DNA from: Dryomyza anilis
Taxonomy: Eukaryota; Arthropoda; Insecta; Diptera; Dryomyzidae
Direction of reading: 5' to 3'
Length of the DNA stretch: 64,000 nt
Assembly: GCA_951804985.1 (NCBI GenBank)
Contig: OX638131.1
Coordinates: 84,902,849 to 84,966,848, forward strand
Notes under the pieces: model-generated
Database searches by the model: none
What the model was told of the DNA's origin: nothing
What the model saw: only the letters and a program-made list of their open reading frames with translations
Shown: one piece after another, positions 2,939 through 37,888 of the stretch
Layout of the letters: every line of letters begins with the position of its first letter
Numbering within the stretch: the first letter of the stretch is position 1
Translations under genes and position numbers: made by a program

Positions 2939-3196
2939 ATCCGAAATACGAACACTTACTTCGTCGTTATGGTTAATACATATGTTATATACTTAAAGCC
3001 GGTTTTACAATGGTAGATTAACTCGATTTGTGGGTTAAACGTAGTTTAATCTCAGAATTCAGTTTTACAGTGACTTTAAATCGTCGTTTAAAATTATTTT
3101 AAACATCTTATGTTGCCCGTTTTTTGGCTGCGGCGCTTTCTAGTCGTCATTTTAGCTATAACTGTTAAAAGTCAAGTAATTCAAATACCAATAAAT

Positions 3197-3286
3197 AACA
3201 CGTTTTCGCCAGCATCGCTTTCTCGTTATAACTTTCAATCTAACACGTTTTCGCCAGCATCGCTTTCTCGTTATAACTTTCAATCT
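3197..3286. repeat. 45-bp perfect tandem duplication
   Basis: Two identical 45-bp units (3197-3241 and 3242-3286) beginning AACACGTTTTCGCC lie inside the TIR element. Being perfect, the duplication is probably recent. Confidence 0.95.
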
Positions 3287-3349
3287 AATGTTATAGATCA
3301 AGTGTTGTGTCAAAAATGTCTGGGAAAAAAGCATTGGATGAATTGTATA

Positions 3350-3670
3350 TTCCATGAATTGTTCATACGATGAGTTGTGCATACGATGAATTGTGCATAC
3401 GATGAATTATGCATACGATGAATTATGCATACGATGAGTTGTGATACGATGAATTGTCCATACAATAAATTGTGCATGCGATGAATTCTATATACGATGA
3501 ATTATGTATACGATGAATTGTGTATACGATGAATTGTGTATACGATGAATTGTGTATACGATGAATGTGTATACGATGAATTTGCATACGATGAATTGTG
3601 TATACGATGAATTGTGTATACGATGAATGTGTATACGATGAATTTGCATACGATGAATTGTTTACGATGA
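3350..3670. repeat. minisatellite, ~15 bp unit GCATACGATGAATTGT
   Basis: About twenty imperfect units of the form (G/T)(C/T)ATACGATGAATTGTG are arrayed inside the TIR element. A minus-strand open frame here is only a by-product of the repeat. Confidence 0.95.
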
Positions 3671-3816
3671 ATAGTCAGCGAATAAATTATAAGCTGTTCC
3701 ATATAATAGACATAATCGATAAATTATTGACACTTGCCAGTGATGCCATTATTTATCCGAATTGACTCAGCTCATTTTAAACTTTCAATGTAAAACAGCT
3801 ATCAAAGTTAAACGTT

Positions 3817-3873
3817 GTTTAAATTCATGAGACGTTTAATCTTTGTTTAATTAAACGTCTCATGAATTTAAAC
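3817..3873. repeat. 24-bp inverted repeat hairpin
   Basis: Perfect 24-bp arms (3817-3840 and 3850-3873, core CATGAGACGTTTAAT) surround a 9-nt loop near the right end of the TIR element. Confidence 0.9.
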
Positions 3874-4084
3874 AACTAGGTTTAAACTAGCACTGTAAAA
3901 CCGACCCTTAGTTTCCATAACTATGACAAACTTTTATTTCTTGATCTCTAACTTTGTTTTTCACAGCATGCGTTATAGCGTCCATTAGATCTTGTGGTAA
4001 GTTCTGCGGATTATTACTAAAATCTAGGGTTAAAATGATTGATTCAGTTGCGGTTCTTTGTAAAACTATTGGAATTTAGTGTAA

Positions 4085-6439
4085 CTATGCACAGTCATCT
4101 CTAAGCAAAGAGTCATCGACAATATCATTCTTAACCGGTTCGCACTTTAATGGAGAAGATTCTATGGTTTGACAATTGAGCTGTTGCTCCAACTTATTTA
4201 CCTCGACAACAGTGTCTACTGATTGTTCTCGTTTGACGATACTATTGACTTGATCGTTAATAACTGGTCCAAATTCTAAATTCGCCACTGGTGTTTCATT
4301 TTGTGACCCTGTGTCGCACGGTACTTCAACATCTGTAACCATGCTGTTCTTAGAGCTAGGCAATAAAATAATTTTTATATCCCCTTTTCTTGAAATACGC
4401 ACTCGGTATCTCTCATTTTCACTTTTATAAACAAACGAATATTGTTTCGATTTTGTTTTGTTGTTTAATAGTTTTATAGCTTTTTCCATTAAACCATTAG
4501 GTACTTTATCAAAATCTGTGATCAGTTTATATTGAATTAACACACTCTGTGTTTCGACGGAGTTATTTGAGATTATATTAAATTGACCTATTTTTGAAAC
4601 GTAACTTGACTGCATACTATCAGTATTATCAATCTGTACTAGTTCGTATTTTACATCATTTTCGTTGTCAACTCGTTCAGTTTTGAGAATCGGAGCGCTG
4701 CATTGCATCGTTACATCATCCTCCTGGATGTTGTTCCCACTTTGAATCAATTCAGCCGTACTAAGATCAAGTGGTTTCATCTGCTTTGTATTGATAGAAG
4801 TTGTGGTATTCATGTTGTCCTCATTCGGTGTATTGTGGATCAGGTCTTTCATAGATTTAACTCTTATATTAGTACTTTTCGGTACGTTATTGCTAGTGCT
4901 AGCATTCTCCGTATGAATTGTTCTAACATTTTTCGTAAAATTTCCAATATTACCTTCAATTCCGATTTTACTAACATTAACAGTTTTTAGTGTGATACAT
5001 TTTTCATTTACATTATCTTTCAGCCGACTAGATTTCGCAGTATTTATTGCTTTTGTATTATCGGTTGGCAATGTCGTATCTTTCATCTCTGTCAGATTAG
5101 TCATATTTTTATGAACTACTATGTTTCCATTACCACTTGGTTCAATTCTTGTTTTGTAAATAAATTTGCCAAAAACATAATCCATTATCAATCTACTATT
5201 TTTCTTGCTAGCAACCTTTTCTTTTAGAATTTGTAGAAGTCCATCGGGTAGATTGCCATGATTCTCCTTGAAGTAAATATTAATATTTCCCCTAATGTCA
5301 GTGTTCTGTAGATTACGAACGGTTGTCACTTTGTCACCTACGACAGATATGGTAATGAAAGTACCCGCTTTATATACACTACAATGGGGTGAAACGGTTA
5401 TATGTCTCGGTAGTGTAACGTCTTTATTATGCCTCAACATTGGCTCTCTCTTACTACCCATATTTACTAATATATTTGTATTTTTGTCGGTCAACGAACA
5501 ATCTGGTACATTTTCAGTTACTATTATTTTCTCTATATCATGCGTAGTATTGTCGGACGCATCTTTCAATGATCGAGCAATAATATTAACAGCTTGGTTA
5601 CATTTTTCGTTCTGATATTTAGATGCTGCAGAAATCTTATTTTTAAATACTATTATTCTGACATTACCCTCTCTGCCTATACGCACTCTGTAAATATAAT
5701 TTGTAGAAAAACGTTTACATTGTATTTTTTGACCATGTTTTCTGTCCGCCTTTAATTTATAAACATGTTCCAGTAGTACTTCCGGTAGACTATGTACGTT
5801 ATCATGATATTGCACAATGAAACTTCCACCATAATCTGTGCTCTGAGTACCACTAACAGTACTCCCGTTGTCATCTTCGACTGATATATCTTCAGTATCG
5901 CTATGTTGTGCAATGTCCGCAATTTTTTGAATTGCTTTAATCTTAGTATGAGTATCTAGCACCGGTTTCCTTTTTTCCTTAGTTGGATTTGTAACGGTAG
6001 TAGAGCTCATTGGTAATGCAATTGACTGATCGCCAATGCTTAATGTAGCTCCTACTTTCAAAAGGAAATCCATGCCCAACACCACGTTACCAACAATATC
6101 GGTAAGTACCAGAAACTGTTGCTCACAATGTATATTTCCCAATCTGACCATTATCTCCAAGGTTTCATCTACTATTTTCATCTCGCCAGTGGACAAGTAC
6201 ATTTTCTTTTTGCTAGGAAATATCGTTGCATTTTCTCGTAGTACATTTGCAAAATCTTGACTAATGTAACTCAGTGTAGATCCGGTATCAATAGTCGCCT
6301 TGACCAGATCATGACCCAGTGCAATAACAGCAATAATTCCAATTTGATCAAATGACAGCACATCGTTGGGGTACTCTACATATTCATCGGGATCGTCTTC
6401 AGGAACGAGTTTTCTTTTACCCAATGGCATCGGCAACAT
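4085..6439 (-). CDS. gene A: retropepsin-like protease with repeat domains, 784 aa
   Basis: The start is the ATG of MLPMPLGKRK, conserved in all four paralogues. There is no signal peptide, and an early KRK suggests a cytosolic or nuclear protein. Residues ~34-142 form a single retropepsin-like domain: ATIDTGSTLSYIS with the catalytic-type D51-T-G-S, then VVLGMDFL (about 119-126), the second conserved motif of Ty3/gypsy proteases. The ~62-residue repeat occurs at about 204-266, 383-443 and, divergent, 636-696. Linkers are rich in N, T, S, D and K and carry the recurring SMKDLIHNTPNEDN. It has no zinc knuckle, RT, RNase H or integrase. Compared with B-D, the protein ends before the terminal repeat, whose remains follow the stop. 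It is intronless. A homodimeric protease of retroviral type is inferred from the family, and the substrate is unknown. The open frame argues for recent function, but the truncation leaves that uncertain. Confidence 0.8.
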   Translation of the reverse strand: MLPMPLGKRKLVPEDDPDEYVEYPNDVLSFDQIGIIAVIALGHDLVKATIDTGSTLSYISQDFANVLRENATIFPSKKKMYLSTGEMKIVDETLEIMVRLGNIHCEQQFLVLTDIVGNVVLGMDFLLKVGATLSIGDQSIALPMSSTTVTNPTKEKRKPVLDTHTKIKAIQKIADIAQHSDTEDISVEDDNGSTVSGTQSTDYGGSFIVQYHDNVHSLPEVLLEHVYKLKADRKHGQKIQCKRFSTNYIYRVRIGREGNVRIIVFKNKISAASKYQNEKCNQAVNIIARSLKDASDNTTHDIEKIIVTENVPDCSLTDKNTNILVNMGSKREPMLRHNKDVTLPRHITVSPHCSVYKAGTFITISVVGDKVTTVRNLQNTDIRGNINIYFKENHGNLPDGLLQILKEKVASKKNSRLIMDYVFGKFIYKTRIEPSGNGNIVVHKNMTNLTEMKDTTLPTDNTKAINTAKSSRLKDNVNEKCITLKTVNVSKIGIEGNIGNFTKNVRTIHTENASTSNNVPKSTNIRVKSMKDLIHNTPNEDNMNTTTSINTKQMKPLDLSTAELIQSGNNIQEDDVTMQCSAPILKTERVDNENDVKYELVQIDNTDSMQSSYVSKIGQFNIISNNSVETQSVLIQYKLITDFDKVPNGLMEKAIKLLNNKTKSKQYSFVYKSENERYRVRISRKGDIKIILLPSSKNSMVTDVEVPCDTGSQNETPVANLEFGPVINDQVNSIVKREQSVDTVVEVNKLEQQLNCQTIESSPLKCEPVKNDIVDDSLLRDDCA

Positions 6440-6780
6440 ATTTGTTAGGGTAAGTGTAATTCCTACAATACTGTTTGCCCAAAGGTCTTGGTATAACCTT
6501 TGATTAGGCTAATTTTGCAGTGGTGTAACGACCACCTTCTGCCTAAAATGATTAATAAGTGGTGTATTAACAACCTGCTTAATATACATAAATACAAATT
6601 ATAGCAGTTGAGAGTAAGTCAACCAACTGTTGTTTTATCTGACCTTTGAGCACAGATAAAATATAGATAAAGTGCAGGTAATATATATGTTATAACAATT
6701 CTTATACAATCAGAAAATATTGCGTCGTATAAAATAATAATTTTTCCTCAAAATACATTTTACAAACTTCTAGACTAAGA
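6440..6780 (-). promoter_or_regulatory. conserved 5' flank of gene A
   Basis: This segment is nearly identical to 19747-20095 upstream of gene B. Parts are shared with the flanks of C and D, notably TTTTAGGCAGAAGG and CCACTGCAAAAT on the minus strand. TTTTAG could be a 3' splice site of a 5' UTR intron. A TATATTTTAT word (minus strand, ~6655-6665) is followed about 25 bp later by GTCAGAT, a possible TATA/initiator pair. No start site can be proven. Confidence 0.4.
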
Positions 6781-6782
6781 AA

Positions 6783-6880
6783 AAAAAGGATCGACATTTT
6801 GGTACTATGGTTCAGGAATTTTTTCTTTATCGAATAATTTTCAATTTTGACACCTAAACAGGGATTGATTGGCGTTGCAC
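6783..6880. repeat. short dispersed repeat, second copy of 17-120
   Basis: It shares GGATCGACATTT, AATTTTTTCTTTA and TTTTGACACCTAAACAGGG with the window's first 120 bases. Class unknown. Confidence 0.5.
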
Positions 6881-6920
6881 AAATGGCATAACAATAATTT
6901 GTACTATTCTTCACCACGTA

Positions 6921-7233
6921 GCCGCGGTAGCTCAGTGGTTAGTGCGTTGGACTGCGAGCCGAATGGTCCCCGGTTCAAGCCTGGACTGGGGCTAACAACA
7001 TCTTTTCATAGAAACAATTTTCTATACCTCGCTACCTCTCGTCAGTAAATGGCAAACCTACGAGAGTAAAACCATTGCCTATGAAAAAGCTCTCACCCGC
7101 CGTTCGGATTCGGCAATAAACTATAGGTCCCACCACTTTGAGTACAAATATAACACGCACAGCTCAAAATGGTGAGAGAGCTCGGCCGAAGTTCTATACA
7201 GGACTGTAGCGCCAAACTATTATATTATTATAT
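6921..7233 (+). mobile_element. tRNA-derived SINE, copy 2
   Basis: Full-length copy: head GCCGCGGTAGCTCAGTGGTT, B-box-like GGTTCAAGCC, body, and tail GCCAAACTATTATATTATTA. It is flanked by a perfect 16-bp target duplication TATTCTTCACCACGTA (6905-6920 and 7234-7249), the longest in this window and evidence of a young insertion. The tRNA-like head is not a functional tRNA gene, since the body runs straight on from it. Confidence 0.95.
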
Positions 7234-7351
7234 TATTCTTCACCACGTAATAATGTTTTTTATTCATAAAAATTTAAAATTATTGTAAAGTTTTGAATTT
7301 CGTTTGGCTATATCTCGTCAGTGAATTCTTCATTTATTGCAATTAAATGTA

Positions 7352-9026: not shown

Positions 9027-9460
9027 GTAGGCAAAAGATTAAGGGTATTGAGATATGCATTGGCCATTCTTTACTTTCGGAACACTACTCCACCTTTTTG
9101 TGGTTCTTGAAGAAATCTCTTGACCGTGCAAACCTCTTTTTTTTAAATTATCCAAATCCCATACAAAACAAAATTACTCAACTTGCGTAATTCTTTTTAA
9201 ATTACTCAACAAATTACTCAAAAACGTTTAAAAATAATCAACGTTTTTGACAACCAAAAATATATACAAAACAATTTTCAGTTATCTGTTTTTGTAAATT
9301 ATGAATTTTTTTAAATAAAATAATTATTTTAACATTAGAAAAACATTAACAAAATAAATGGAGAACAAAATAGAAATACCATTTGTACGGATTTATTTAA
9401 GAAGTGAACACAAAATTAACAACAGTAAATAACGCAAATTCTAATGTGAATGGATATCAT

Positions 9461-15810: not shown

Positions 15811-18800
15811 CTATATGTCATCTGAAATACGTACACTTACTTCGCCGCTTCGATTAATACGTATATTATATACTTGGTCTCCATAGATACGACGAAATCT
15901 GAGTTTGCGGTTGCCTTTATTTTTCACTGCTTCCGTTATACCGTCCATTAGTTCTTGCGGTAAGTTGTAGGGATTATTACCAAAATCAACGGTTAAATTG
16001 ACTGAACTGTTTGACTGATTCAGTTCATTGTTAACCGATTGGAATTCCATATAATTATGTGATGTTAAGTCGTCGCTGTTAACATTCATTGGCGAAGAGT
16101 CTTTGGATTGACTGAGCTGTTGCTCCAACATATCGTTGTGTGCGGAACATTCAGCACTCTTGTCTAATGCCTCGCATTGTTCTTGTTGGACGATACGACT
16201 GACTTGATCGTTACTAACCGGTCCATGTTCTAAATTCGCCACTCGTGATTCATTTTGTGACCCTGTGTCGCACGGTATTTCAACATCTGTAACCCTGCTG
16301 TCCTGCGAGCCGGACAAGATACGAATTGTCATATGTCCTTTTCTTGAAATACGCGTGTCAACTCGTTCGGTTTTGACAATCGGTGCGCTGCGTTGCATCA
16401 ATTCATCATCCTTATTACGGTTGGCACCACTCTGAACCAGTTCAATTGTGATTTTATCCACGTCGTCAAATACTCTTGGCGTATCAGATATTTTCTCGTT
16501 CGTTACATTCGTCTCGTGGAATGTGCTATATTGTGTTGTATGATCTGTGATGAAAGTTGTAGTATTATTGTCATCCTCATTTGGAGTATTGTGGATCAGG
16601 TCTTTCATAGATTTAACCCTTAAATTAGGACCATGCCGTATGCTATTGCTAGTACTCGCTCTCTCGGAATGATCATTTTTAACATTAGCAGTACTATTAG
16701 TATTGCTGTCTTCAATTACCTTAGCACTAACATGAATAGCTTTTAATGTGGTACAGACATTATCATTCTGCTCATAAGATGGCGCAATATCTTTTACATT
16801 TGTATTAACGGATGGTAATAATACACTGTTAGTATTATAAGTCGCATCTTGCCTTTCAGTAAGACTAGTCGTATTTTTACATACTAATATTTTTGCTTTA
16901 CCATTTCTACTAATTTTTATTGTGTAAAGAAAGTTGCCAAAAACATGTCTAAAATTCCACATTTTACATTTCTTAGGACGAACAATATTTTTAAGCCTTT
17001 GAAGAAGTGCATCGGGTAGATTGTCATGATTGTCCATAAAGTAGACCTCGTAGTTTAACACATTGTCAGTGTTCTGATGAGTGTCATCTCCGACTGATAT
17101 ATTAATTGAAGTACCAGCTTTGTATATGCTACTGTTTGGAAAATCTTCAGGAACGCTATGAGGTATATAGTCCAGAACACCATCAAGTGGAGCCATCCGA
17201 TTTGTATCGATAGAAGTTGTAGTATTTTTGTTCTCCTCATTCGGAGTATTATCGATCAAGTCTTTCAATGATTTAACCCTTATATTAGAACCTTGCCGTA
17301 TTTTATTGCTAGTGCTAGCTTTCTCCGTATGATCTGTTCGAACATTTGTAGTAAAATTCGTAATATTATCCTCAACTACTTTTGTACTAACAATAACAGG
17401 TTTTAGTGTTGTACAAGTTTCAGTAACAGTATCGGTCGCATTTTTATTATACTGTATACAATCATTCTGAACCGGTTCGACTTTTAGATCTTTTTCGTTA
17501 TCAACTCGTTCAGGTTGGACAATCGGGGCGCTGTTTTGCATCGATACACAACCCTCCTTTGTGTTATCACCACTTCTAATCGGTTCGATTCTAGTGCCAG
17601 CTATTTGTGAATGATCTGTTGTAACAGCTTTTAGTGTGGCACACATTTCTTTTACATTATTTTTCTGCGTAGTAGATGTCGCAGTATTTATTGCTTTTGT
17701 ATTATCGGTTGGTAATGTACAAGAAGCATTATAACTCGAATCTTGTATTTCTATCAAATTTGTGGTATTTTTACGAACTACTATTTTTCCATTACCACTT
17801 CTACCAACTTTTATTTGATAAAGAAAGTTGCCAATAACGCGTTTAAATCCGCGCCTTTTATTTTTCGTTGGAGTAATAATATCTTTAAGAATTTGTAAAA
17901 GTTCCGCTGGTAGATTGCCATGATTGTCCATAAATTGAACGATGAAATTGAACTTATTGTCGGTGTTCTGATGAGTGGCATCTCCGATTGATATGTTAAT
18001 TGAAGTTCCAGCTTTGTTTATGCTTAAATCTTCTGTAACGCAATGAGGTGTATCGTCCAGAACAGGATCACGTAGTTCCATCTGGTTTGTATAGATACAA
18101 GTTGTAGTATTTTTATTGTCGTCATTCGATGTATTGTGGATCAGGTCTTTCATAGATTTAACCCTCACATTAGAACCGTCCAGTATGTTATTGCTAGTAC
18201 TAGCGTTCTCCCCATGATCTGTTCTATCATTAGCATTAATATTGATATCTTCAATTAGCATAGCACTAACATTAGTAGTTTTAAATGTGGTACAAACTTT
18301 ATTTACATTATCTTTCTGTGCAGTAGATATCGCAGTGCGATTATCTCTATCGTTACAAACTGGTGATTTATTCTGTGACCGTGAGACGCACGGGACTTCA
18401 ACATCTGTAATTTTGTTTCGCTTAGAATCAGGCAATAAGTTAATTCGAATATTTCCTATTCTTGAAATTCGCACTTTGTAGTTTGTGTCTTCATCAAAAT
18501 AAGCAAATCCTATTTTGTCGCCTCTTTTTCTTTTATTATCTGCATTCATAACATTTTCCACTAAATAATCCGGTAATTTATCTAAATCGTCACCATAATA
18601 GATGGTTAAATTGTCAATTTCATTTCTGATGCCTCTATGTTCTCTTGAAACACTCTTTGTTTCGACGGCATTATTTGAGACTTTATTACATTGCGCTATA
18701 TCGTATCTAATATTCGAAGTCGATACATCATCATAACGGCATGAATTGTCATGTCTACTTCTACTGTTTTCATAACCTTTCTTTACATTATGTTTCTGCA

Positions 18801-19746
18801 TAAGTGATGTCGCAGAATCTATTGCATTATCGGATGGTAATGATAACGAACATGAAGTTTCATTATTTTTTGTACTATCCGCATGACAAGACGTATAAAC
18901 TTGACATTTGTTTGGCTGAAGATTAGTAGTATTTTTAAGAACTTGTATTTGTCCATGGCAGCTTCTGCCAAATCTTATTTTGTAAAGAAAGTTGCCAAAA
19001 ACACGTTGAATTCTAAATCTACCCTTTTTCTTGCAAGCAATAATTTCTTTAACGGTTTGTATAAGTTCGTTTGGTAGACTATTATCATGATTGTCTATAA
19101 AGTGAACGTTAAAAATTCCCTTAGTGCTGCTGTTATCATGATTGTCACCTCCGACTGTTATGTTTATTGAAGTTCCAGCTTTGTAAAGGCTATATTGTGT
19201 CAAATCTTCTGTAACGCTATCGCCCTGCAGATGTTGAACTGGCTGCATCTTAGCACTAGTGTCTGGTACAACTTTAGTTGCTATCATAATTTTATTAATA
19301 ACGGTAGAAGAATTCAATGACAATGTAATTGACTGATCTCCAATGCTAAGTTTAGTTCCTACTTTTAGTAGAAAATCCATGCCTAACACCACATTACCGA
19401 CAATATCGGAAAGTATCAGAAACTGTTGATCACAACGTATATTTCCCAATCTGACCATTATCTCCAAGGTTTCATCTACTATTTTCATCTCGCCAGTGGA
19501 CAAGTGCATTTTCTTTTTGCTAGGAAATATCGTTGCAGTTTCTCGTAGTATATTTGCAAAATCTTGACTAATGTAACTCACTGTAGATCCGGTATCAATA
19601 GTCGCCTTGACCAGATCATGACCCAGTGCAATAACAGCAATAATTCCAATTTGATCAAATGACAGCACATCGTTGGGGTACTCTACATATTCATCGGGGT
19701 CGTCTTCAGGATCGTGTTTTCTTTTACCCAAAGGCATTGGCAACAT
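15811..19746 (-). CDS. gene B: retropepsin-like protease with six repeat units, 1311 aa
   Basis: This is the longest gene in the window and has one uninterrupted exon. I start at the conserved MLPMPLGKRK; the frame runs 19 codons further upstream but without an ATG. The retropepsin-like domain spans about 34-142, with ATIDTGSTVSYIS (D51) and VVLGMDFL intact. Repeat units lie near residues 210-275, 377-442, 598-663, 896-960, a partial one at ~1129-1155 and a terminal one at 1250-1310 ending RISDDI. The best-conserved core is NLP..LLQ..K followed by FGNFLY.I...R.G...I.V.KNTT. Each unit looks like strand-helix-strand-strand. Linkers repeat STSN, IRVKS.KDLI.NTPN and DNTKAIN-type words, so repeat plus linker was amplified together. 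There is no signal peptide, membrane segment or other retroelement domain. Function is unknown; an active protease is inferred from the intact DTGS. Confidence 0.85.
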   Translation of the reverse strand: MLPMPLGKRKHDPEDDPDEYVEYPNDVLSFDQIGIIAVIALGHDLVKATIDTGSTVSYISQDFANILRETATIFPSKKKMHLSTGEMKIVDETLEIMVRLGNIRCDQQFLILSDIVGNVVLGMDFLLKVGTKLSIGDQSITLSLNSSTVINKIMIATKVVPDTSAKMQPVQHLQGDSVTEDLTQYSLYKAGTSINITVGGDNHDNSSTKGIFNVHFIDNHDNSLPNELIQTVKEIIACKKKGRFRIQRVFGNFLYKIRFGRSCHGQIQVLKNTTNLQPNKCQVYTSCHADSTKNNETSCSLSLPSDNAIDSATSLMQKHNVKKGYENSRSRHDNSCRYDDVSTSNIRYDIAQCNKVSNNAVETKSVSREHRGIRNEIDNLTIYYGDDLDKLPDYLVENVMNADNKRKRGDKIGFAYFDEDTNYKVRISRIGNIRINLLPDSKRNKITDVEVPCVSRSQNKSPVCNDRDNRTAISTAQKDNVNKVCTTFKTTNVSAMLIEDININANDRTDHGENASTSNNILDGSNVRVKSMKDLIHNTSNDDNKNTTTCIYTNQMELRDPVLDDTPHCVTEDLSINKAGTSINISIGDATHQNTDNKFNFIVQFMDNHGNLPAELLQILKDIITPTKNKRRGFKRVIGNFLYQIKVGRSGNGKIVVRKNTTNLIEIQDSSYNASCTLPTDNTKAINTATSTTQKNNVKEMCATLKAVTTDHSQIAGTRIEPIRSGDNTKEGCVSMQNSAPIVQPERVDNEKDLKVEPVQNDCIQYNKNATDTVTETCTTLKPVIVSTKVVEDNITNFTTNVRTDHTEKASTSNKIRQGSNIRVKSLKDLIDNTPNEENKNTTTSIDTNRMAPLDGVLDYIPHSVPEDFPNSSIYKAGTSINISVGDDTHQNTDNVLNYEVYFMDNHDNLPDALLQRLKNIVRPKKCKMWNFRHVFGNFLYTIKISRNGKAKILVCKNTTSLTERQDATYNTNSVLLPSVNTNVKDIAPSYEQNDNVCTTLKAIHVSAKVIEDSNTNSTANVKNDHSERASTSNSIRHGPNLRVKSMKDLIHNTPNEDDNNTTTFITDHTTQYSTFHETNVTNEKISDTPRVFDDVDKITIELVQSGANRNKDDELMQRSAPIVKTERVDTRISRKGHMTIRILSGSQDSRVTDVEIPCDTGSQNESRVANLEHGPVSNDQVSRIVQQEQCEALDKSAECSAHNDMLEQQLSQSKDSSPMNVNSDDLTSHNYMEFQSVNNELNQSNSSVNLTVDFGNNPYNLPQELMDGITEAVKNKGNRKLRFRRIYGDQVYNIRINRSGEVSVRISDDI

Positions 19747-20100
19747 ATTTGTTAAGGCAAGCGGAATTCCTACAATACTGTTTGCCCAAAGGTATTGGTA
19801 CAACCGTGCCTTAGGCTAATTTTGCAGTGGTGTAGCGACCACCTTCTGCCTAAAATGATTAATAAGTGGTGTATTAACAACCTACTTAATATACATAAAT
19901 ACAAATTATAGCAGTTGAGAGTAAGTCAACCAGCTCTTGTTTTATCTGACCTTTAAGAGCAGATAAAATATAGATAAAGTGCAGGTAATATATATGTTAT
20001 AACAATTCTTATACAATCATAAAATATTGCGTCGTATAAAAGAATCTTTTTTTCTCAAAATACATTTTACAAATTTCTAGACTAAGTACTATGGTTTAGG
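19747..20100 (-). promoter_or_regulatory. conserved 5' flank of gene B
   Basis: Near-identical to the gene A flank (6440-6780), including TTTTAGGCAGAAGG and TATATTTTATCTG...GGTCAGAT on the minus strand. The identity shows A and B derive from a recent segmental duplication and may share control. Start site not provable. Confidence 0.4.
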
Positions 20101-20844: not shown

Positions 20845-23800
20845 CTATATGTCATCTGAAATACGTACACTTACTTCGCTGCTTCGATTAATACGTATAT
20901 TATATACTTGGTCTCCATAGATACGACGAAATCTGAGTTTGCGGTTGCCTTTATTTTTCACTGCTTCCGTTATACCGTCCATTAGTTCTTGCGGTAAGTT
21001 GTACGGATTATTACCAAAATCAATGGTTAAATTGACTGAACTGTTTGACTGATTCAGTTCATTGTTAGCCGATTGGAATTCAATAGAATTATGTGATGTT
21101 GAGTCGTCGCTATCATTCATTGGCGAAGAGTCTTTGGATTGACTGAGCTGTTGCTCCAACATATCGTTGTGTGCGGAACATTCAGCACCCTTGTCTAATG
21201 CCTCGCATTGTTCTTGTTGGACGATACGACTGACTTGATCGTTACTAACCGGTTCATGATCTAAATTCGCCACTGGTGATTCATTTTGTGACCCTGTGTC
21301 GCACGGTATTTCAACATCTGTAACCCTTCTGTCTTGCGAGCCGGACATTAAACGAATTGTCATAAGTTTATTTCTTGAAATACGCACTCGGTATTCCTCA
21401 TCTTCGCTTGTATAACCAAATGTATTATTAGTCGATTTATATCTGTTGTTTATTACATTTATTGCTTTTTCCAATAAACCATCGCGTAATTTATCCAAAT
21501 CTTCGCCATAATAGATGGTTAAATTGTCAATTTCATTTGTGATCGGTCTACGTTGACTTAGCACAGTCTGTGTTTGGACTGCGTTATTTGATATTTTGCC
21601 AACTTGTACTATATCTGAAATATGTATATTAGACAGTATTCTATCGGCTTCGTCTTTTACATTAATTATTGTATATTCTTTGTCATTATCATTTTTGACA
21701 TGCTCGAGATTCGAAGTAATGATGTTAGTCGATATATCACCATCTTCAATTACCTTAGCACTAACATGAATAGCTTTTAATGTGGTACGGACATTATCAT
21801 GCTGCGCAGTAGTTACCTCAATATCTATTGCATCTGTATTATCAGAAGGTAATAATACACTGGAAGTATTGTAAGTCTCATCAGTAAGAATTTCAGTAAG
21901 ACTAGTCGTATTTTTACGAACTACTATTTTTGCTTTACCACTTCTACTAATTTGTATTGTGTAAAGAAAGTTGCCAAAAACGCGTCTATAAATCCATCTT
22001 TTACTTTTCTTGGGACGAACAATATTTTTAATACTTTGAAGAAGTGCATCGGGTAGATTGTCATGATTGTCCATAAAGTACACCTCGAAGTTTAACACAT
22101 AGTCTGTGTTCTGATGAGTGTCATCTCCGACTGATATATTAATTGAAGTTCCAGCTTTGTATATGCTACAGTTTGGAAAATCTTCAGTAACGCTATGAAG
22201 TATATAGTCCACAACACCATCAAGTGTAGCCCTCTGATTTGTATCGATAGAAGTTATATTATACATGTTCTCCTCATTCGGAGTATTATTGATCAAGCCT
22301 TGCAATGATTTAACCCTTATATTAGAACCTTGCCGTATGTTTTTGCTAGTGCTAGCTTTCTCCGTTAGATCTGTTCTAACATTTGCAATAAAATTCGTAA
22401 TATTATAATACTTTTGTTCTAGCAATAACACGTTTTAGTGAGGTACAAGTTTCAGTAGCAGTATCGGTCGCATTCTTTTTCGACTTTTACATCTTTTTCG
22501 ATAACAACTCGTTCAGTTTGGACAATCGGCGCGCTGATTTGCATCGATACACAACCCTCCTGGGTGTTATCACCACTTCTAATCGGTTCGATTCTAGTGC
22601 CAGCTATTTGTGAATGATCTGTTGTAACAGCTTTTAGTGTGGCACACATTTCTTTTACATTATCTTTATGCGTAGTAGATGTCGCAGTATTTATTGCCTT
22701 GTATTATCTGTTGGTAATGTACATGAAGTATTATAACTCGAATCTTGTATGTCTATCAGATGTGAGGTATTTTTACGAACTAGTATTTTTCCAGTGCCAT
22801 TTCTATTAATTTGTATTTTGTAAACAAAGTTGCCAATAACGCGTTTAAATACGTGTTTTCTATTTTTCGTGGGAGGAATAATATCTTTAATATTTTGTAG
22901 AAGTTCAGCGGGTAGATTGCCATGATTCTCCATAAAGTGAACGATGAAATTTGACTTATTGTCGGTGTTTTGATGAATGGCATTTCCGATTGATATGTTA
23001 ATTGAAGTTCCAGCTTTGTTTATGCTTGAATCTTCTGTAACGCAATGAGGTGTATCGTTCAGAACAGGAACACGTGGTTAGTTGATCTATTTTGTAGTAT
23101 TCTTTTTGTCGTTATTCGGTTTATTATCGATGAGGTCTTTCATGGATTTAACCCTTATATTAGAACCTTCCAGCATGTTATTGCAAGTACTAGCTTTTTC
23201 CCCATTATCTGTTCTAACATTTGCAGAAATATTAGTATTGATATCTTCAATTACCTTAGCACTAACATTAGTAGTTTTTAATGTGGTACAAGCTTTATTT
23301 ACATTATATTTCTGTGCAGTAGATATCTCTATACGATTATCTTTATCGTTACAAACAGGTGATTTATTCTGTGACCGTGAGACGCACGGGACTTCGGCGT
23401 CTGTAAATTTGTTTCGCTTAGAATCAGACAATAGGTTAATTCGAATATTTCCTTTTCTTGAAATACGCACTTCGCACTTCAATGGCAATGTAATTGACTG
23501 ATCTCCAATGCTAAGTTTAGTTCCTACTTTCAGTAGAATATCCATGCCTAACACCACATTACCCACAATATCGGATAGTATCAGAAACCGTTGCTCACAA
23601 CGTATATTTCCCAATCTGACCATTATCTCCAAGGTTTCATCTACAATTTTCATTTCGCCAGTCGAAGTGAATTTTTTTTATACTGGGAAATATTGTTGCA
23701 GTATCTCCCAGTACATTTGCCAAATTTTTACTAATGTAACTCAGCTTTGATCCTGTATCAATAGTAGCCTTTTCCAGATCATGTCCCAGTGCAATAATAG

Positions 23801-23918
23801 CAATAATTCCATTTTCATCAAATGTTAGTGCATCGTTGGGGTATTCCATATATTCATCGGGGTCTTCTTCTGACTCTATTGGATCGTGTTTTCTTTTACC
23901 CAATAGCATTGGCAACAT
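20845..23918 (-). pseudogene. gene C: frameshifted copy of the retropepsin-repeat gene
   Basis: The start MLPMLLGKRK and the retropepsin half with DTGS (about 23745-23765) are present, but a ~2-bp deletion near 23662 shifts the frame just before the GEMKIVDE segment. After LSIGDQSITLPL the sequence jumps directly into an EVRISRKG repeat tail, so an internal block has been deleted. A stop at 23087 and further shifts near 23080, 22700 and 22440 follow. The rest parallels gene B from about residue 590 to its end. Repeats are recognisable at 22760-22950, 21895-22090, 21340-21540 and 20848-21030, and the last ends RISDDI as in B. Several independent lesions make this a pseudogene. It does retain one complete repeat (NLTIYYGEDLDKL...) that is only partial in B, so it records an older layout. 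Confidence 0.88.
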
Positions 23919-24180
23919 ACTTATTTAGGTTCATGTATTATTACAATAGTATTTGATATAAGGTGTTGGAATAACCTTACTATGCAGTGGCGTATGGAAA
24001 ACCTTCTGCCTAAAATTACAATAAGCGGTATGTTAACGAAACAACCAACTTAATATAAAGACGAATTTTAAGAGTTGAGTTTACCGGCTCTTTAACAGAA
24101 GGTAAATTATAAAATATAGAAGAAGTGCAGGTAATATATGTCAATAAACTTCTTAAACAATCAGACAATGGCGGATTAAA
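23919..24180 (-). promoter_or_regulatory. 5' flank of pseudogene C
   Basis: Shares TTTTAGGCAGAAGG and CCACTGCA with the flanks of A, B and D, and TATATTTTAT with A and B, but is more diverged. Confidence 0.35.
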
Positions 24181-25975: not shown

Positions 25976-27319
25976 AGGGTTTTTCAACGGGGACGCTACA
26001 AAACTAGAGCGACAGGGACAGCAACGTCGCCATATTTCTTGCCGCTCTTTTGACATTTCTCTTCAGTAAGGTTTGCCATTTCATGATGGAAAGATATACG
26101 AGCCAACAACGAGTCGAAATTATTAAAATTTACTACCAAAATTCGAATTCGTATATCTTTCCAGGATGACCCTGAGCAACACACGTTGCTCAGTGAGAAT
26201 AGGAAAAGACCTCTCCGAGCCATTTCATTCCGAACGAGGTTTCAGACAGGGTGACTCCCATCGTGCGACTTTTTTAACTTATTGATGGAGAAACTTATTG
26301 ATGAAAATAGTTCGAGCTGTCAAACTCCGTCAAAGTGGCACTATCCTCAACAAAAGTGTCATGCTGCTCGCATATGCCGACGATATTGATATCATTGGCA
26401 GGAGCACACGAGCAGTCAGCGCAGCATTCTCCAGACTGGAGAAAGAGTCGCGTCGAATGGGTCTAGCGGTGAACGAGGACAAGACGAAGTTCCTTGTGTC
26501 AACAAGCAAAAAAGAGTCCGTGCGTCTTGGACAAAAAGCTGATTTTGACACCCACAAGTTCGACATTGTGAAGGACTTCGTCTATCTGGGATCCAGCGTA
26601 AACAGCAACAACGACGTCAGCCTGGAGATCAAACGGAGAATAACTCTTGCCAACAGGTGCTACTTTGGGCTCAGTAGGCAATTGAGAAGCAGAGCCCTCT
26701 CTCGCCGGACAAAAATAACGCTCTACAAGTCACTCATCATGCCCGTCCTACTTTATGGTGCAGAAACATGGACGCTGGCCACCACCGATGAGAGAGTACT
26801 GGGAGCGTTCGAGAGAAAGATTCTCCGTAAAATCTTTGGCCCTATCTGCTTTGCTAACGAGTATCGAATCAGGATGAACCACGAGCTGTATGAGTTATTC
26901 GACGACATTGACATAGTCAAGCGCATCAAGATCCAGCGGCTTCGCTGGCTAGGTCATGTCGAACGAATGGATGAAAACACTCCAGCCAAGAAGGTGCTTG
27001 AATCGAAACTCGAAGGTGGACAGCGTAGAAGAGGGCGTCCAAATCTGCGTTGGAAAGACCAAGTTGAGGACAACCTGGCAACGCTTGGTATTTCTAACTG
27101 GCGTCAGCGCGCGCAAAGCAGATCCGACTGGCGCGGCTTCATCTCAGCGGCCAAAACCGACCCACGGTTGTAAGGGCCATTTAAGTAAATAAGTAATATT
27201 TTTCCATCATGAAATGGCAAACCTTACTGAAGAGAAATGTCAAAAGAGCGGCAAGAAATATGACGTCGTTTGCTGTCCCTGTCGCTCTACTTTTGTAGCG
27301 TCCCTGTTAAAAAAACCCT
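25976..27319. mobile_element. TIR DNA transposon carrying an inserted LINE fragment
   Basis: Inverted arms of about 110 bp lie at 25976-26092 and 27207-27319. Both carry GGGACGCTACAAAA, AGAGCGACAGGGACAG and GGTTTGCCATTTCATGATGG. Just inside the left arm, 26092-26160 can be read as MERYTSQQRVEIIKIYYQNS, the style of N-terminal helix-turn-helix found in DUF4817-type insect transposases. The rest of that transposase is missing and replaced by the reverse transcriptase at 26165-27173. Confidence 0.72.
26165..27173 (+). pseudogene. RTE-like non-LTR reverse transcriptase, 3' part
   Basis: The open part (26298-27173, 291 codons) holds LLAYADDIDIIGRS, the catalytic YADD block, then GLAVNEDKTKF, VYLGSSVN, LYGAETWTL and RLRWLGHVERMDE, the classic finger-to-thumb order of this LINE group. 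Upstream (26165-26297) the same protein continues in other frames (SCDFFNLLMEK), broken by a short CTTATTGATG-type duplication and a stop. It ends at TAAGGGCCATTTAAGTAAATAAGTAA-like 3' sequence without poly(A), which suits RTE elements. Base composition is close to balanced, in sharp contrast to the AT-rich surroundings. The fragment is 5'-truncated and cannot move on its own. Clade assignment is by motif style. Confidence 0.82.
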
Positions 27320-31105: not shown

Positions 31106-31197
31106 TAAAATTTGAATAAATATTTTTACTTTAAAAACTACTGTACTACTGAAAAGGGTACCATGACATATCGCTCAACGAACATAATTTCCAATTT

Positions 31198-31245
31198 GGG
31201 GGTTATGTCTGCCGTTCTTTCAGACATAATCCCCATATGTTTTAA
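31198..31245. repeat. short hairpin GGGGTTATGTCTG
   Basis: GGGGTTATGTCTG and its complement CAGACATAATCCCC are separated by about 9 nt. No wider element recognised. Confidence 0.6.
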
Positions 31246-32151: not shown

Positions 32152-32159
32152 GACTTGCC

Positions 32160-32592: not shown

Positions 32593-32640
32593 GACTTTCC
32601 TATTGGGAGATTTTAAGGTTTAGTCAATTTTTTTATTGAA

Positions 32641-32694
32641 AATCATACGGACGAAAGTTACCAATAGTGGCAGGTAACTTTCGTCCGTATGATT
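32641..32694. repeat. 22-bp perfect hairpin
   Basis: Perfect 22-bp arms (32641-32662 and 32673-32694, core CATACGGACGAAAGTTACC) with a 10-nt loop, followed by a T-run. There is no sign of a neighbouring gene. Confidence 0.95.
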
Positions 32695-33183
32695 TTTTTT
32701 ATCCTTAAAAAATTTTGAAATAAAGACTCGGAAGTGAAGCCGAAACGACCGTATTATCTCAAATTGTGTAACTGAAATATACCACACTCTGCCACTCTAA
32801 AGACAGTTTAAGTTTGAACGCAAAAACCTTAATATTTCAAAAATTTTTGGCTAAAGTTCACTTTACCGGCCGAAGTGAAATTAAAAAAAAAAAATTGTCT
32901 CGCGCTGTATTTTTGCAAAAAAAAAAATACCAAAATTAAAAAATCGCGCCGCTCGGACCCGTGGTGACCTTGAAAAATCAAAAACCGGTGCACCTACTTA
33001 CAAGTACATATGGGTACTCAAATGAAAGGTATTTTCCTCACGATTCCAAATCTGTAATTGTTTTTCAGATCTACATCAATTTATGTAATTTCAATCATAT
33101 GTATATGTTTTATGTGCTACTTGTATGTAATAATTGAAGTATATTAGAATGTATGTACATATATTTAGAATATATGTACATAT

Positions 33184-33843
33184 CAGTGTAGGGCAAAAAT
33201 TATTTCAAATAAAAAATAAAAAAATATAAAATAACTTTCATTTATTTTTTATTTTGAGTGACAAATAATTTTATATTTATTTGTATTTCAAATAACAAAT
33301 AAATTAAATTTATTTGTTATCTTTTTATTCGTTATTTGAAAAGTTCAAATAAAAATACAAATGATTTTGTTTTCAAATATTTTATTAAAATGTGAATTAA
33401 AAACCAAGTACTTTTTAAGGATATTTGCAGCGATAATGGCTGGGACTAACATCTTTTCATAAAAATCATTTTAATAAACCGCTCTACCTCTCGGCAGACA
33501 ATGGCAAACCACACTGCCCCCGAAAAGCTCTGAGTCGAGCGTGAACTATTACAATTATTATTATTGTTGGTATATTTAACTCCAATAATGATGGCACGAA
33601 TTCTCATGGCGATCATTTGGAACATAATTTTCAAATTTTGTTTTTATTTATTGCTTCATTTTACATTTCAAATAAATTTATTTTAATTAACAAATAACAA
33701 ATAACAAATAATTTATTTGTCTCGTCAAATAAAAAGATGAAAGATAAAAATTTGATATTTGAACGAAAAGTAAAAATACAAATAAAAAAAGTATTTGTTA
33801 TGATTTATTTGAATAAAAATTTATTCAATAATGCCCTACACTG
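33184..33843. mobile_element. 660-bp hAT-like element with perfect 8-bp duplication
   Basis: Ends CAGTGTAGGGCA and TGCCCTACACTG are flanked by GTACATAT at 33176-33183 and 33844-33851. The interior is a long run of CAAATAAAAATA-type words. A worn SINE relic lies near 33436-33556. Nested inside the long-inverted-repeat element. Confidence 0.92.
33436..33556 (+). mobile_element. degenerate SINE relic
   Basis: GGGACTAACATCTTTTCAT, CTACCTCTCGGCAGACAATG and GAAAAGCTC follow the order of the SINE body. Head and tail are lost. Confidence 0.55.
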
Positions 33844-34605
33844 GTACATATATATCTATGTGCTTCTGAAAAAATGAAAAATTTCGCGCGATTTTTTTGA
33901 AAAATTTTTCACCTGCGGCGCTACATTCATACAAAAATTACTATTTCATATCCAAAATTAAATCAAAAGTAGATATATACCTTCTACTTAAAAAATGACA
34001 AATTTTTCAAAAATATCGCGCGATTTTTTTGAAAAATTTTTCGCCTACGGCGCTAAAAACAAAGAAAACCCAACATTTTCCTTCTAAATTCAATAATAAA
34101 TCAAAAATTAAAAAATAACATTAAACAAATTAAAATAATGCAAAAAAAAAATTAAAAAAATTAAAAAAAAAAAAAAAAAAATTAATATTTTTTTTATAAA
34201 AAAAACCAAAAAAAGAAAAAAAATATATATAAGCTTAAAAATCTTAAGGTTATACATTCTTATATACTTCAATTATTACATAAAAGTAACTCATACAACA
34301 TATACATATAATTGAAATAACATAAGGATTGACAGATCTGAAAAACAATTACAGATTTGGAATCGTGAGGAAAATACCTTTCATTTGAGTACCCATATGT
34401 ACTTGTAAGTGGGTGCACCGGTTTTTGATTTTTCAAGGTCACCACGGGTCCGAGTGGCGCGATTTTTTAATTTTGGTATTTTTTTTTTGCGAAAATACAG
34501 GGGGTAGCAATTTTTTTTTTTTTTTCGCTTCGGCCGGTAAAGTGAACTTCTCCCAAATTTTTTAACTTTTTCGTTTAATTCTGGTAGTTAAAAATCATTT
34601 TGAGT

Positions 34606-35037
34606 GGCAACCGTCGTTGCATATTACCCGCACTTGCTCTAATATTTCTCTTATACTCACTTTGTCAACTCTTTTTCTGTCGGTCTTTTTGTTGCTTTTG
34701 TTTTCTTTTGTTGTACTCGTTGTTATTTTAACGTCTGTAACTTGATTTGATGTTATTTCGTTATTAAGCTATTGACATTTAACAATTAGTTGTTGCTGTG
34801 GTCGTAGTTTATATTTTAATCAATAATTCAGTTAATTGTTCAACAATTATTTGTTATTTCCTGTACTGACGCTTGGCGATTCTGCTATGCAGTGATTACT
34901 TTATTTGCGGTTTTAAATGTTGAATTAAAACGAAAAATCGACAATAAAAATTCATAATGTTTCACGTTGAACGATTTCTCACTAAATGCCATTATCCTGT
35001 CATCTCTTTTACACCGTTCGTGGCACGTGTGGTTGCC
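34606..35037. mobile_element. TIR element (GGCAACC family), copy 1
   Basis: Ends GGCAACC and GGTTGCC are inverted. The body, with CATATTACCCGCACTTGCTC and TTAATCAATAATTCAGTTAA, is repeated in the same orientation at 40010-40442. Confidence 0.65.
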
Positions 35038-35580
35038 AACTTCTTGCGGAAAATACCATGTATGGTATTTTTAATGCTATGTTAACCATTATACTAGAAT
35101 AAACGTTTATAATCAATGGCTGGATTCAGCGAGCTAAACTGTTGAGCAATTTGTGCCTGAATTTCATGATAGGCGCGATCTTTTTTTTCCATCGAAACAA
35201 TTTTACGCTACATTTGCACTACCTCTGTTATCGATGACATTCAATCTCATTTTAACTCAAATATTTATAAACAAAAACGGCTGTTTCGCAACTGTTGAGA
35301 TCGCTGAATGCACCCAATGTTTGATTACATTATGTGACACTATTTTTTCATTTAATTTTAAATTCAGAATAGAAATATTTGACACTGTTCGGTATGGGAT
35401 TTTAAAATTGACTTGAACCAAGTACACGAAAAACTGAACAAATAAACAACTATGAATTTATGTTCAGAAAATTTTAAAGTTTTTAGTAATAAATATTAAA
35501 TATTTTATTATTTATAATATCTTTATTATTGTTTCTGTTCAATTATAATAATTTTAATATAATAAGACAATTCAATCGTT
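35038..35580. other. no gene recognised
   Basis: AT-rich. An open frame at 35153-35416 shows no motif or paralogue in the window and I do not call it. Confidence 0.4.
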
Positions 35581-35818
35581 TTTATTATAAAAAATGTTTT
35601 ATTTTTACAAAACCAATTATTGTAGCTTTGTTACAAATTATTTCGATGTTTATAACATGATTAATTTCACACATATTTTCGTAATTCGTTAATACTATAC
35701 GATACATTATCAAATGTTCTTTATAACCGTAGTTCGTACGAGATACGCTGGATACGCAGCAGTTACGAAATTTAATTAATCCCTTTAATATAAATTTCAT
35801 TTTTCATACAACAAAATC

Positions 35819-37888
35819 TCATATATCATCGGAAATCCCAATACATACTGCTCCGCTTCGTTTTATACGTATGGTATACATTTGGTCTCCAAATTTACGA
35901 CGAAAACCAATTTGTTGGCGTTTGCCTCTTCTTTTCATTGCTTCCGATATATTGTCCATTAATTCTTGCGGTAAGTTGTGCGGATTATTACCAAAATCTA
36001 CGGTGAAATGACTTTGATGCCGTTTATTGTTAACCGATTTGAGTTCAATGCAACTATGTGGTGTTGGGTCGTCGATTTTAACATTTTTAGTCGGTTCGCA
36101 ATTTAACTTTGCCGATTCTATAGTTTGATTGCTGTGCCGCTGGTCCAACGTAACATTATCACCACAAAAATGATTAAAAGTTTTGGACGGAACTTTTGTT
36201 ACATTACTACTGTCCTGCGAATTGGGAAATGCAAAAATTCTTACAACTCCTTTTCTTGAAAAACGCACTTTATAATTTTTATCTGCACTATAAATATATG
36301 AAAGTTGGTTTCCTCTTTTTCTTGTCTTTGCAGCGTCTACTAAATTCTCTATTAAATCACGTGGTACTTTATCTAAATCGTCACCAATATATATGTTTAA
36401 ATTGACAATGTCATTTTTGAATCGACTATTTTGAATTAACACACTCTGTTTATCGAGGGCGTTATTTGAGACTTTATAAAATTGCGATAAAGTATTATCA
36501 GCCTGCACCGGTTCGTTTTTCACATTGCTCATTTTATATTGTTTATCATTATCGTGTCCGACTTGTTCGAATCCTAGATTTGAAGTACTGATGTTAGTCG
36601 ATAAATCATTATTACTAAAGTTCTCATTGTCAATTCGTTCAGTTTTGACAATGGCGGTGTTGTCAAAACATTGAACCGTTGCGATTGTGATGATATCCAC
36701 GTCGGTATCGGGTACATATTTGTTCGTGACATTCGTATCGTGCAATGTGTTACATTTTGTAGTATGATCTGAGATGCATGTTGCATTATTCATGTTGTCA
36801 TTATTCGGAGTATTGTGGACCAAGTCCTTAATAGGTTTAAGCCTTATATTATAATCTGAAGGTATGTCACTGCTAGTGCTAGGGGAATCTTGGAAATAGT
36901 TATCAAGTTGCTGTTGAGAAATACGTATTTTGTGGCGTACATAATTGTTCGTAACATTCGTATCGTGCAATGTGTCTTTTGTAGTTGTAGTATTCATGTT
37001 GTCCTTATTCGGAGTATTCTTGAACAAGTCATTTATAGGTTTATCCCTTATAATAGAATCTGAACGTATGTTACTGCTAGTGCTAGTGGAATTTCCAAAA
37101 TAGTTATCAAGCTGCTGTTTAGAAATACGTATTTTGTAATTGTTCTGCTTAATAGTATTGTTAAGTACTATTATTTTGACATTACCTCCCTTGTCTATAT
37201 GAATATCGTAAATAAAATTTCCAAAATCACGTCTACATTGTATACTTCGACCTCTTTTGTTTTTTAATGTATTTACATGTTGGAGTAGTTCTTCGGGTAG
37301 ACTATGTACATTGTCATTATAATGCACGATGAAACTACTATGTGCCAAATCTTCAGTATCGTTATGTGTATCATCAACTGGCTCCCTCATAGCATAAGTA
37401 TTTGGCAAAGTTTTACTTTCAACCATATTTGTAACAGCAGTAGAGTTCAATGGTAAAACAATTGACTGATCTCCAATGCTAAGTTTAGTTCCTACTTTTA
37501 GTAGAAAATCCATGCCCAACACCACATTACCCACAATATCGGAGAGTATCAGAAACTGTTGCTCACAACGTATATTTCCCAATCTGACCATTATCTGCAA
37601 GGTTTCATCTACTATTTTCATCTCGCCAGTGGACAAGTGCATTTTCTTTTTGCAAGGAAATATCGTTGCACTTTCTCGTAGTACATTTGCAAAATCTTGA
37701 CTAATGTAACTCACTGTAGAACCGGTATCAATAGTCGCCTTGACCAGATCATGACCCAGTGCAATAATAGCAATAATTCCGTTTTGATCAAATGTTAGTG
37801 CATCGTTGGGGTATTCTATATATCCATCGGGGTCTTGTTCTGGTTCTGTTGGATCGAGTTTTCTTTTACCCAATGGCATCATCAACAT
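35819..37888 (-). CDS. gene D: retropepsin-like protease with repeat domains, 689 aa
   Basis: Intact single-exon paralogue, starting MLMMPLGKRK. The retropepsin-like domain (about 37-145) keeps ATIDTGSTVSYIS (D54) and VVLGMDFL. Repeat units lie at about 192-252 (SSFIVHYNDN...FGNFIYDIHI), 480-545 (NLNIYIGDDLDKV...) and at the C terminus (FTVDFGNNPHNLPQEL...YTIRIKRSG...ISDDI). Between the first two, a ~77-residue segment starting KIRIS.QQLDNYF and including DL..NTPN.DNMN is duplicated. This duplication is seen in no other copy. The protease domain is nearly identical to those of A and B, whereas the linkers differ strongly, pointing to constraint or gene conversion at the protease end. Isolated from A-C by 12 kb of transposons. 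A possible poly(A) signal (AATAAA, minus) lies near 35580-35600. Function unknown. Confidence 0.85.
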   Translation of the reverse strand: MLMMPLGKRKLDPTEPEQDPDGYIEYPNDALTFDQNGIIAIIALGHDLVKATIDTGSTVSYISQDFANVLRESATIFPCKKKMHLSTGEMKIVDETLQIMVRLGNIRCEQQFLILSDIVGNVVLGMDFLLKVGTKLSIGDQSIVLPLNSTAVTNMVESKTLPNTYAMREPVDDTHNDTEDLAHSSFIVHYNDNVHSLPEELLQHVNTLKNKRGRSIQCRRDFGNFIYDIHIDKGGNVKIIVLNNTIKQNNYKIRISKQQLDNYFGNSTSTSSNIRSDSIIRDKPINDLFKNTPNKDNMNTTTTKDTLHDTNVTNNYVRHKIRISQQQLDNYFQDSPSTSSDIPSDYNIRLKPIKDLVHNTPNNDNMNNATCISDHTTKCNTLHDTNVTNKYVPDTDVDIITIATVQCFDNTAIVKTERIDNENFSNNDLSTNISTSNLGFEQVGHDNDKQYKMSNVKNEPVQADNTLSQFYKVSNNALDKQSVLIQNSRFKNDIVNLNIYIGDDLDKVPRDLIENLVDAAKTRKRGNQLSYIYSADKNYKVRFSRKGVVRIFAFPNSQDSSNVTKVPSKTFNHFCGDNVTLDQRHSNQTIESAKLNCEPTKNVKIDDPTPHSCIELKSVNNKRHQSHFTVDFGNNPHNLPQELMDNISEAMKRRGKRQQIGFRRKFGDQMYTIRIKRSGAVCIGISDDI

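Follow-up and report, generated by a model that had tools for sequence, protein, structure and literature searches.

A tandem cluster of retropepsin-like coding sequences in Dryomyza anilis, probably built from the two ends of a Ty3/gypsy-type element

A 64,000-nt stretch of the genome of the fly Dryomyza anilis (C2:84902849-84966848, that is, contig OX638131.1 of assembly GCA_951804985.1; hereafter the window) and its left flank harbor five tandem copies, A to E, of a coding sequence that joins an N-terminal retropepsin-like domain to several copies of a repeated unit. Because the protease is of gypsy type, comes without gag, reverse transcriptase (RT) or integrase, sits in one tandem cluster and shows purifying constraint, it appears to be a domesticated retrotransposon protease, as a preliminary description of the window had proposed. 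That description had also claimed a fusion to new domains, which does not hold: by sequence comparison, a homologue of the unit forms the C-terminal module of a third open reading frame (ORF3), coding for a Ulp1 protease, in an element of the same genome, and both parts of the cluster proteins would thus be element-derived. We consider it probable that the ends of such an element became a host exon, and that this exon was multiplied, shares leader exons and encodes an active, tethered protease. The genome searched comprised 656.6 Mb in 69 contigs. The copies within the window are as follows (window coordinates):

4085-6439, minus strand: copy A, 784-aa ORF with a retropepsin-like domain and three units; last unit lost by frame
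3911-4075, minus strand: out-of-frame remnant of the C-terminal unit of A (33 bits with the unit profile)
15811-19746, minus strand: copy B, uninterrupted 1311-aa ORF with a retropepsin-like domain and five units
20845-23918, minus strand: copy C, broken, with the protease in two frames and stops and shifts after it
35819-37888, minus strand: copy D, uninterrupted 689-aa ORF with a retropepsin-like domain and three units

Copies A, B and D are single-exon ORFs on the minus strand, open throughout from ATG to stop. Copy E lies left of the window, with its protease open from window position -980 downward and the remainder broken, and copy C has four units spread over two frames. B and D look whole, and C and E are broken; A is C-terminally truncated, since its last unit lies out of frame. 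With a profile seeded with four units (three from D, one from B), the open ORFs contain three units in A, five plus one remnant in B, and three in D. Identity to D amounts to 67% in A (over the first 271 residues of D), 72% in E (227) and 80% in B (185), and units within A, B and D score 42-109 bits, the four top scores being the seeds; these values exclude chance similarity. The five protease-plus-unit copies seen sit in one ~43-kb tandem array, with no dispersed copies among the candidates scored (best 65 of 864 for D, 73 of 73 for its post-protease part). The tandem arrangement, the uninterrupted minus-strand ORFs of A, B and D and the repetition of the unit therefore stand as first described, with two amendments: the four genes are five copies in differing states of preservation, and the open ORFs carry three to five units instead of three to six. 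A 16-bp tandem array of 21 copies lies at 3337-3672, just 3' of A, and the 5' leader of E (about 9056-9138 of locus L034) holds a hairpin-capable inverted duplication with ~35-nt arms that is absent from A-D.

The protease domains map as follows:

37454-37831, minus strand: protease domain of D, 41% identical to the pol N-terminus of element locus L017
19321-19698, minus strand: protease domain of B, 40% identical to L017 pol
6014-6391, minus strand: protease domain of A, 42% identical to L017 pol

Comparison of the first ~150 residues with retropepsin profiles, the check that the preliminary description had suggested, yielded PF13975 (gag-asp_proteas) scores of 28.1 bits for A, 29.5 for B and 31.4 for D; B and D thus pass the cut-off of 28.2, and A falls 0.1 bit short. 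The DTGS and VLGMDFL motifs, on which the domain had originally been recognized, are unchanged in A, B, D and E, and copy C retains DTGS and VLGMDIL in separate frames. A search of the whole genome with D (best 65 of 864 candidates scored) returned at least 73 matches, 57 of them outside the cluster and all of these inside residues 1-173. The best-scoring element proteases, located in pol frames of 1276-1298 aa, are ~40% identical over D residues 1/2-145, with E-values down to 7e-24, and a lower-scoring fragment (L004) reaches 44% over residues 29-145. Homology covers the entire start of pol, because the long matches take in the stretch upstream of the domain (MPLGKRK vs LLSTSAGKR). In the protease tree, the four open cluster copies group together (100/100) on a long branch (1.39).

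The repeated unit was located with the seeded profile at these positions:

5630-5833, minus strand: unit A1
5096-5296, minus strand: unit A2
4343-4546, minus strand: unit A3, overlapping the tblastn match to the C-terminus of ORF3 of locus L069
18919-19125, minus strand: unit B1
18415-18621, minus strand: unit B2
17755-17958, minus strand: unit B3
16861-17067, minus strand: unit B4, first row of structure model 1
15814-16014, minus strand: unit B5, C-terminal
37145-37348, minus strand: unit D1
36209-36415, minus strand: unit D2
35822-36025, minus strand: unit D3, C-terminal, first row of structure model 2

Units are ~62 residues long and are spaced by long polar linkers. Structure modeling predicts a strand-helix-three strands fold (predicted local distance difference test score, pLDDT, 76), and comparison of the unit with family and structure databases, likewise proposed beforehand, returned no Pfam family at cut-off and no confident structural relative for the model. 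Emfourin (PF20242) was considered and rejected: 2 of 21 unit sequences match it at E<=1 (best E-value 0.0045), and two element ORFs score 16.1 and 14.8 bits, below the cut-off of 27. NCBIfam gave no match for B or D at E<=0.1. Searches of the protein collection returned no homologue either, a silence that is uninformative and no sign of novelty because even the element ORF3 finds no match there.

The origin of the unit emerged from the genome itself. At one dispersed Ty3/gypsy-type copy, the L017 pol frame matches protease, RT and RNaseH, the integrase lies in L058 of the same element copy, and a gag ORF, with a zinc knuckle recognized by eye, precedes the protease. Directly 3' of the integrase, ORF3 (L069) encodes 579 aa with a Ulp1/C48 domain (76 bits) and one unit at its C-terminus:

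C2:74096501-74100314 (L058:2-1564 plus L069:2-1414): element with the Ulp1 third ORF

The C-terminus of this ORF3 is 40% identical to unit A3 over 53 aa (tblastn, E-value 5e-7, window 4358-4516). When the post-protease part of D was compared with the genome (73 of 73 candidates scored), 50 matches were obtained. The cluster accounts for 23; the 27 outside it are weak, none reaching E<=1e-3, and 25 of them span one unit, with E-values of 0.3-0.8. Several of these places lie 3.6-5.8 kb downstream of protease places, and nine of the 25 were therefore examined further; in all nine (L049-L057) the unit is the extreme C-terminus of an ORF. A hidden Markov model (HMM) built from the cluster units alone scored 32-38 bits at L049-L057, 21 at L060 and 16 at L069, followed by forward ORFs with 9.1 and 8.9 bits, the best reversed-sequence score being 7.1 (3755 ORFs); the units seen by eye at L063 and L066 receive no support from the profile. 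Among four scanned ORF pieces that end in a unit, PF02902 (Ulp1/C48) is matched by the two longer ones, at 60.6 and 31.4 bits, but by neither of the shorter ones.

Ulp1 ORF3 has at least 95 matches in the genome (best 90 of 428 candidates scored), and in four places stretches of 358-471 residues are 96-99% identical. An ORF3 match lies 1-9 kb 3' on the same strand at no fewer than 22 of the 57 non-cluster protease places, against a mean of 0.095 and a maximum of 2 in the shifted control. The ORF3 unit of the L017/L069 element, the match to A3 and this pairing above control together make the coexistence of protease and unit in one kind of element real. We know of no described long terminal repeat (LTR) element with a Ulp1 third ORF and a C-terminal module; the literature on Ulp1 with LTR or gypsy elements, as covered in part and mostly through titles and abstracts, names none. 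A reverse course, in which a host retropepsin-like protein and host repeats were later captured by elements, would likewise leave the unit and a protease in both architectures. We regard it as very improbable, however: the protease is pol's own enzyme, present at 57 or more places outside the cluster, and the unit recurs in several dispersed element families within a Ulp1 ORF of many matches, whereas the cluster is one locus.

Absence of the remaining element parts, asserted in the preliminary description for gag, RT and integrase, extends beyond the window. Over 164 kb around the cluster, tblastn with element queries (E 0.01) detected no gag, RT/RNaseH, integrase or Ulp1; the 14 matches correspond to the five proteases (that of C in two pieces) and two units. 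The cluster copies thus show neither the combination of gag, RT, RNaseH and integrase nor the dispersed copies by which a Ty3/gypsy element would be recognized. As for flanking repeats, A has none longer than 22 nt, the direct repeats around B and C (200 and 208 nt) are blocks of neighboring copies, and that around E (109 nt) is a dispersed repeat. D lies between direct repeats at 34616-35025 and 40012-40426, 71% identical over 410 bp, at whose ends inspection by eye revealed no sequence like a primer binding site (PBS) or polypurine tract (PPT), no TG...CA ends and no target-site duplication. We read this pair as a duplicated first exon; a reading as LTRs is possible.

Selection was assessed from the ratio of nonsynonymous to synonymous substitution rates (dN/dS) among the paralogues. 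For the protease, dN/dS is 0.24-0.45 among A, B, D and E, and all six pairs have a bootstrap upper bound under 1. Unit values range from 0.33 to 1.04 over 14 pairs, the bound staying below 1 in three of them (B2-D2, B2-C3, B3-E4), and post-protease parts as a whole give 0.35-0.57 at synonymous divergences (dS) of 0.84-1.48. This contrast indicates a conserved protease followed by fast-evolving units.

These data bear directly on a simpler account, that is, that the copies are gypsy remnants in decay, shortened by internal deletion and multiplied in tandem by chance, with the 410-bp repeat of D as an old LTR pair. All recognized coding parts are indeed element-derived, C and E are broken, and D is flanked by direct repeats. 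Moreover, across the four ORFs scanned in one element copy (L068/L050, C2:49740200-49746400), gag, protease, Ulp1 and unit were matched but neither RT nor integrase; this copy is apparently an internally deleted form, so that internal deletions seem to occur in this lineage. Similar protease-to-unit spacings elsewhere suggest several copies of this form. Against this account stand the constraint on the protease in every pair and the intact ORFs of 1311 and 689 codons; inspection by eye revealed no LTR hallmarks at the ends of the D repeat, its best conserved part being a consensus donor plus a motif complementary to the acceptor flanks, and no cluster-type copy was seen elsewhere (best 65 of 864 candidates for D; 73 of 73 for the unit). 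On balance we hold the remnant account to be unlikely.

The conserved block 5' of all five ATGs holds a predicted 3' splice site, TTTTAG/GCAG (the slash marks the junction), and the repeats that flank D contain candidate partners for it:

40057-40306, minus strand: candidate noncoding first exon x40, donor GT from 40056, 5' end not defined
34661-34903, minus strand: candidate noncoding first exon x34, donor GT from 34660, 5' end not defined
40017-40031, minus strand: docking-like motif of x40, differing at one position from the selector's reverse complement
34621-34635, minus strand: docking-like motif of x34
38047-38061, minus strand: selector-like motif at the D acceptor
24123-24137, minus strand: selector-like motif at the C acceptor
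19977-19991, minus strand: selector-like motif at the B acceptor
6670-6684, minus strand: selector-like motif at the A acceptor
37951-37957, minus strand: predicted 3' splice site TTTTAG/G before D, with 37951 as the first base of exon 2 (in A 6542, in B 19849, in C 24009 and in E -858)

Located ~2.1 kb before the D acceptor (x40) and 10.7 kb before the C acceptor (x34), the two candidates are copies of a 290-bp stretch with 72% identity, or of 410 bp with 71% when the poorer part is included. Each copy ends in AAA/GTGAGTAT and a motif reverse-complementary to ATATTACCYGCACTT, the selector-like motif that stands 107-140 nt ahead of each acceptor, and the likeness of x34 and x40 drops right after the docking motif. 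At no more than one mismatch, the motif occurs six times in the window, where 0.03 occurrences are expected, and seven times in the 164 kb, that is, at the five acceptors and the two donors; exact copies appear in 13 of the 69 loci examined, all 13 being cluster loci and none an element locus. Predicted duplexes reach -33 to -42 kcal/mol, as compared with means of -20 to -23 for controls of 40 mononucleotide shuffles each. Sixteen unbroken pairs to all five acceptor flanks are found at two places among 70 GTRAGT sites (the two places account for three of the sites, one of them inside the x40 docking motif), the next best site reaching 11. An (AT)n array occupies 38214-38325, inside the putative D intron.

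Judged from sequence, we read these motifs as a docking/selector arrangement, and the cluster may accordingly consist of alternative terminal exons rather than separate genes. The gene family of the preliminary description thus keeps its tandem copies, and the shared candidate first exons and RNA motifs would allow one or two transcription units. In its explicit form, one or two host genes would choose by docking/selector pairing among up to five alternative terminal exons, each of them coding for a complete protease-unit protein, an arrangement compatible with our preferred explanation. Two exon-1-like sequences face five acceptors with selectors in the 164 kb, and A, B and E, which have no detectable exon 1 of their own, pair with x34/x40 at predicted energies of -36 to -42 kcal/mol. 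Partial duplication of a stem arm is, furthermore, a published route to such competition: as far as the accessible part of their article goes, Ivanov and Pervouchine describe how duplicating one arm creates competing docking/selector pairs (PMC6071210). On the other hand, x34 lies 28 kb from A and 35.5 kb from E, proteins might bind the inverted motif, and unrelated promoters invisible to homology may serve A, B and E. We treat exon choice as possible but doubtful. A still bolder version, in which a single regulated, Dscam-like locus joins its leader or leaders by competing RNA pairing to several protease-unit terminal exons and mounts a protease-based defence assembled from the two ends of the very element under its control, strikes us as quite unlikely.

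The history that we favor would start from a Ty3/gypsy-type element with gag, a protease-RT-RNaseH-integrase pol and a Ulp1 ORF3 ending in the module, a lineage still present in the genome. All that lay between the N-terminal part of pol and the C-terminal part of ORF3 would have been lost, leaving the protease and the ORF3 C-terminal module as a host coding exon; the homologies, the absences and the constraint on the protease are observed, and from them we infer the deletion and the order of events. The module would then have multiplied inside the protein to three to five copies on their linkers, and tandem duplication of the exon would have produced five copies; long ORFs persist in A, B and D. 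One or both noncoding first exons, at ~40.1 and ~34.7 kb, would be spliced to the coding exons, as the observed motifs, positions and complementarity suggest, helped by pairing of the docking motif just inside the intron with the selector before each acceptor. The N-terminal domain, having kept its DTG and LGMD motifs, would dimerize as an active retropepsin, and the units would recruit it to a target by binding. The parental element carries this module on its own Ulp1 protease, so that the most economical target would be the particle of that element or a host factor that it uses. The protein would then be a candidate restriction or regulatory protease, a proposal we make only tentatively and would sooner doubt than assert. 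Action on parental elements fits the fast modules, the turnover of copies and the closely similar element copies, and other roles fit too.

Several observations weigh against this history. Expression, splicing and enzyme activity are predicted from sequence. The cluster may be in decay, given two broken copies and one truncated copy among the five; the fast units fit relaxed as well as antagonistic evolution, and gene conversion may partly explain the low protease dN/dS among paralogues. The exact donor is not fixed, as the sister of the cluster in the protease tree could be either L068 or the L015/L017 group, and the best unit matches (L049-L057) and the best protease matches (L015/L017) belong to different element families. 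Furthermore, the nine unit loci were chosen by an initial weak match to D (E-values 0.3-0.8), 35 of the 57 protease places have no nearby ORF3 match (best 90 of 428 ORF3 candidates scored), and the x34-D duplex energy of -32.8 kcal/mol was tied by a shuffle.

Elsewhere in the window, the minus strand of 44232-63313 carries a separate tandem family of 224-238-aa ORFs, at 44290, 46562, 47931 and 62418, with a further copy near 58760-59660; no Pfam family exceeded its cut-off for the ORF at 44290, nor any NCBIfam family for those at 44290 and 62418. RT fragments of long interspersed nuclear element (LINE) type, as judged by eye, lie at 26286-27173 on the plus strand, where RVT_1 scores just below cut-off, and at 56893-57776 on the minus strand.

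Known domesticated retroelement genes derive mostly from gag or env. An insect domestication led by a protease and drawn from both ends of an element, with open-frame relatives in the same genome, offers a clear before-and-after pair. The literature on domesticated retropepsins, covered in part and by title or the start of the abstract, contains no insect family of such kind. A Ulp1 third ORF with a module is itself unusual for gypsy, and the module, present on a cysteine and an aspartic protease alike, may be a portable domain for targeting. Docking/selector pairing, if true, would tie tandem duplication of coding exons to the choice of alternative terminal exons.

Among known systems, the mammalian ASPRV1/SASPase resembles the cluster in being a lone retropepsin-type protease of retroelement origin, and the D protease retrieved four weak matches from the PDB sequences, all of them ASPRV1 (E-value 0.27). 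In the accessible part of its description, ASPRV1 is a domesticated retroviral-like aspartic protease that keeps a Gag-like domain (PMC11402058), whereas the cluster shows no gag, three to five copies of an ORF3-derived module and five tandem copies. The L017/L058/L069 elements share with the cluster a homologous pol N-terminal protease and ORF3 C-terminal module, but they are dispersed, and the cluster has no gag, RT, RNaseH, integrase or Ulp1. Ginger1 transposons, which according to the part of the report available carry Ulp1/OTU domains, likewise place Ulp1 beside a gypsy-type integrase (PMC2836005); Ginger1 is, however, a DNA transposon, and Ulp1 here occupies a separate ORF after an RT-bearing pol. 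Mutually exclusive exons of the Dscam1 type also combine a donor-side motif with several complementary acceptor-side copies, as modeled in the accessible text of PMC6071210, yet with one docking site, in contrast to the two docking copies of the cluster, whose alternatives would be whole coding terminal exons with predicted splicing. What is known in all this is the domesticated retropepsin; what is new is that it is joined to a module from the ORF3 of its own lineage, that this module has multiplied, and that RNA motifs accompany the copies.

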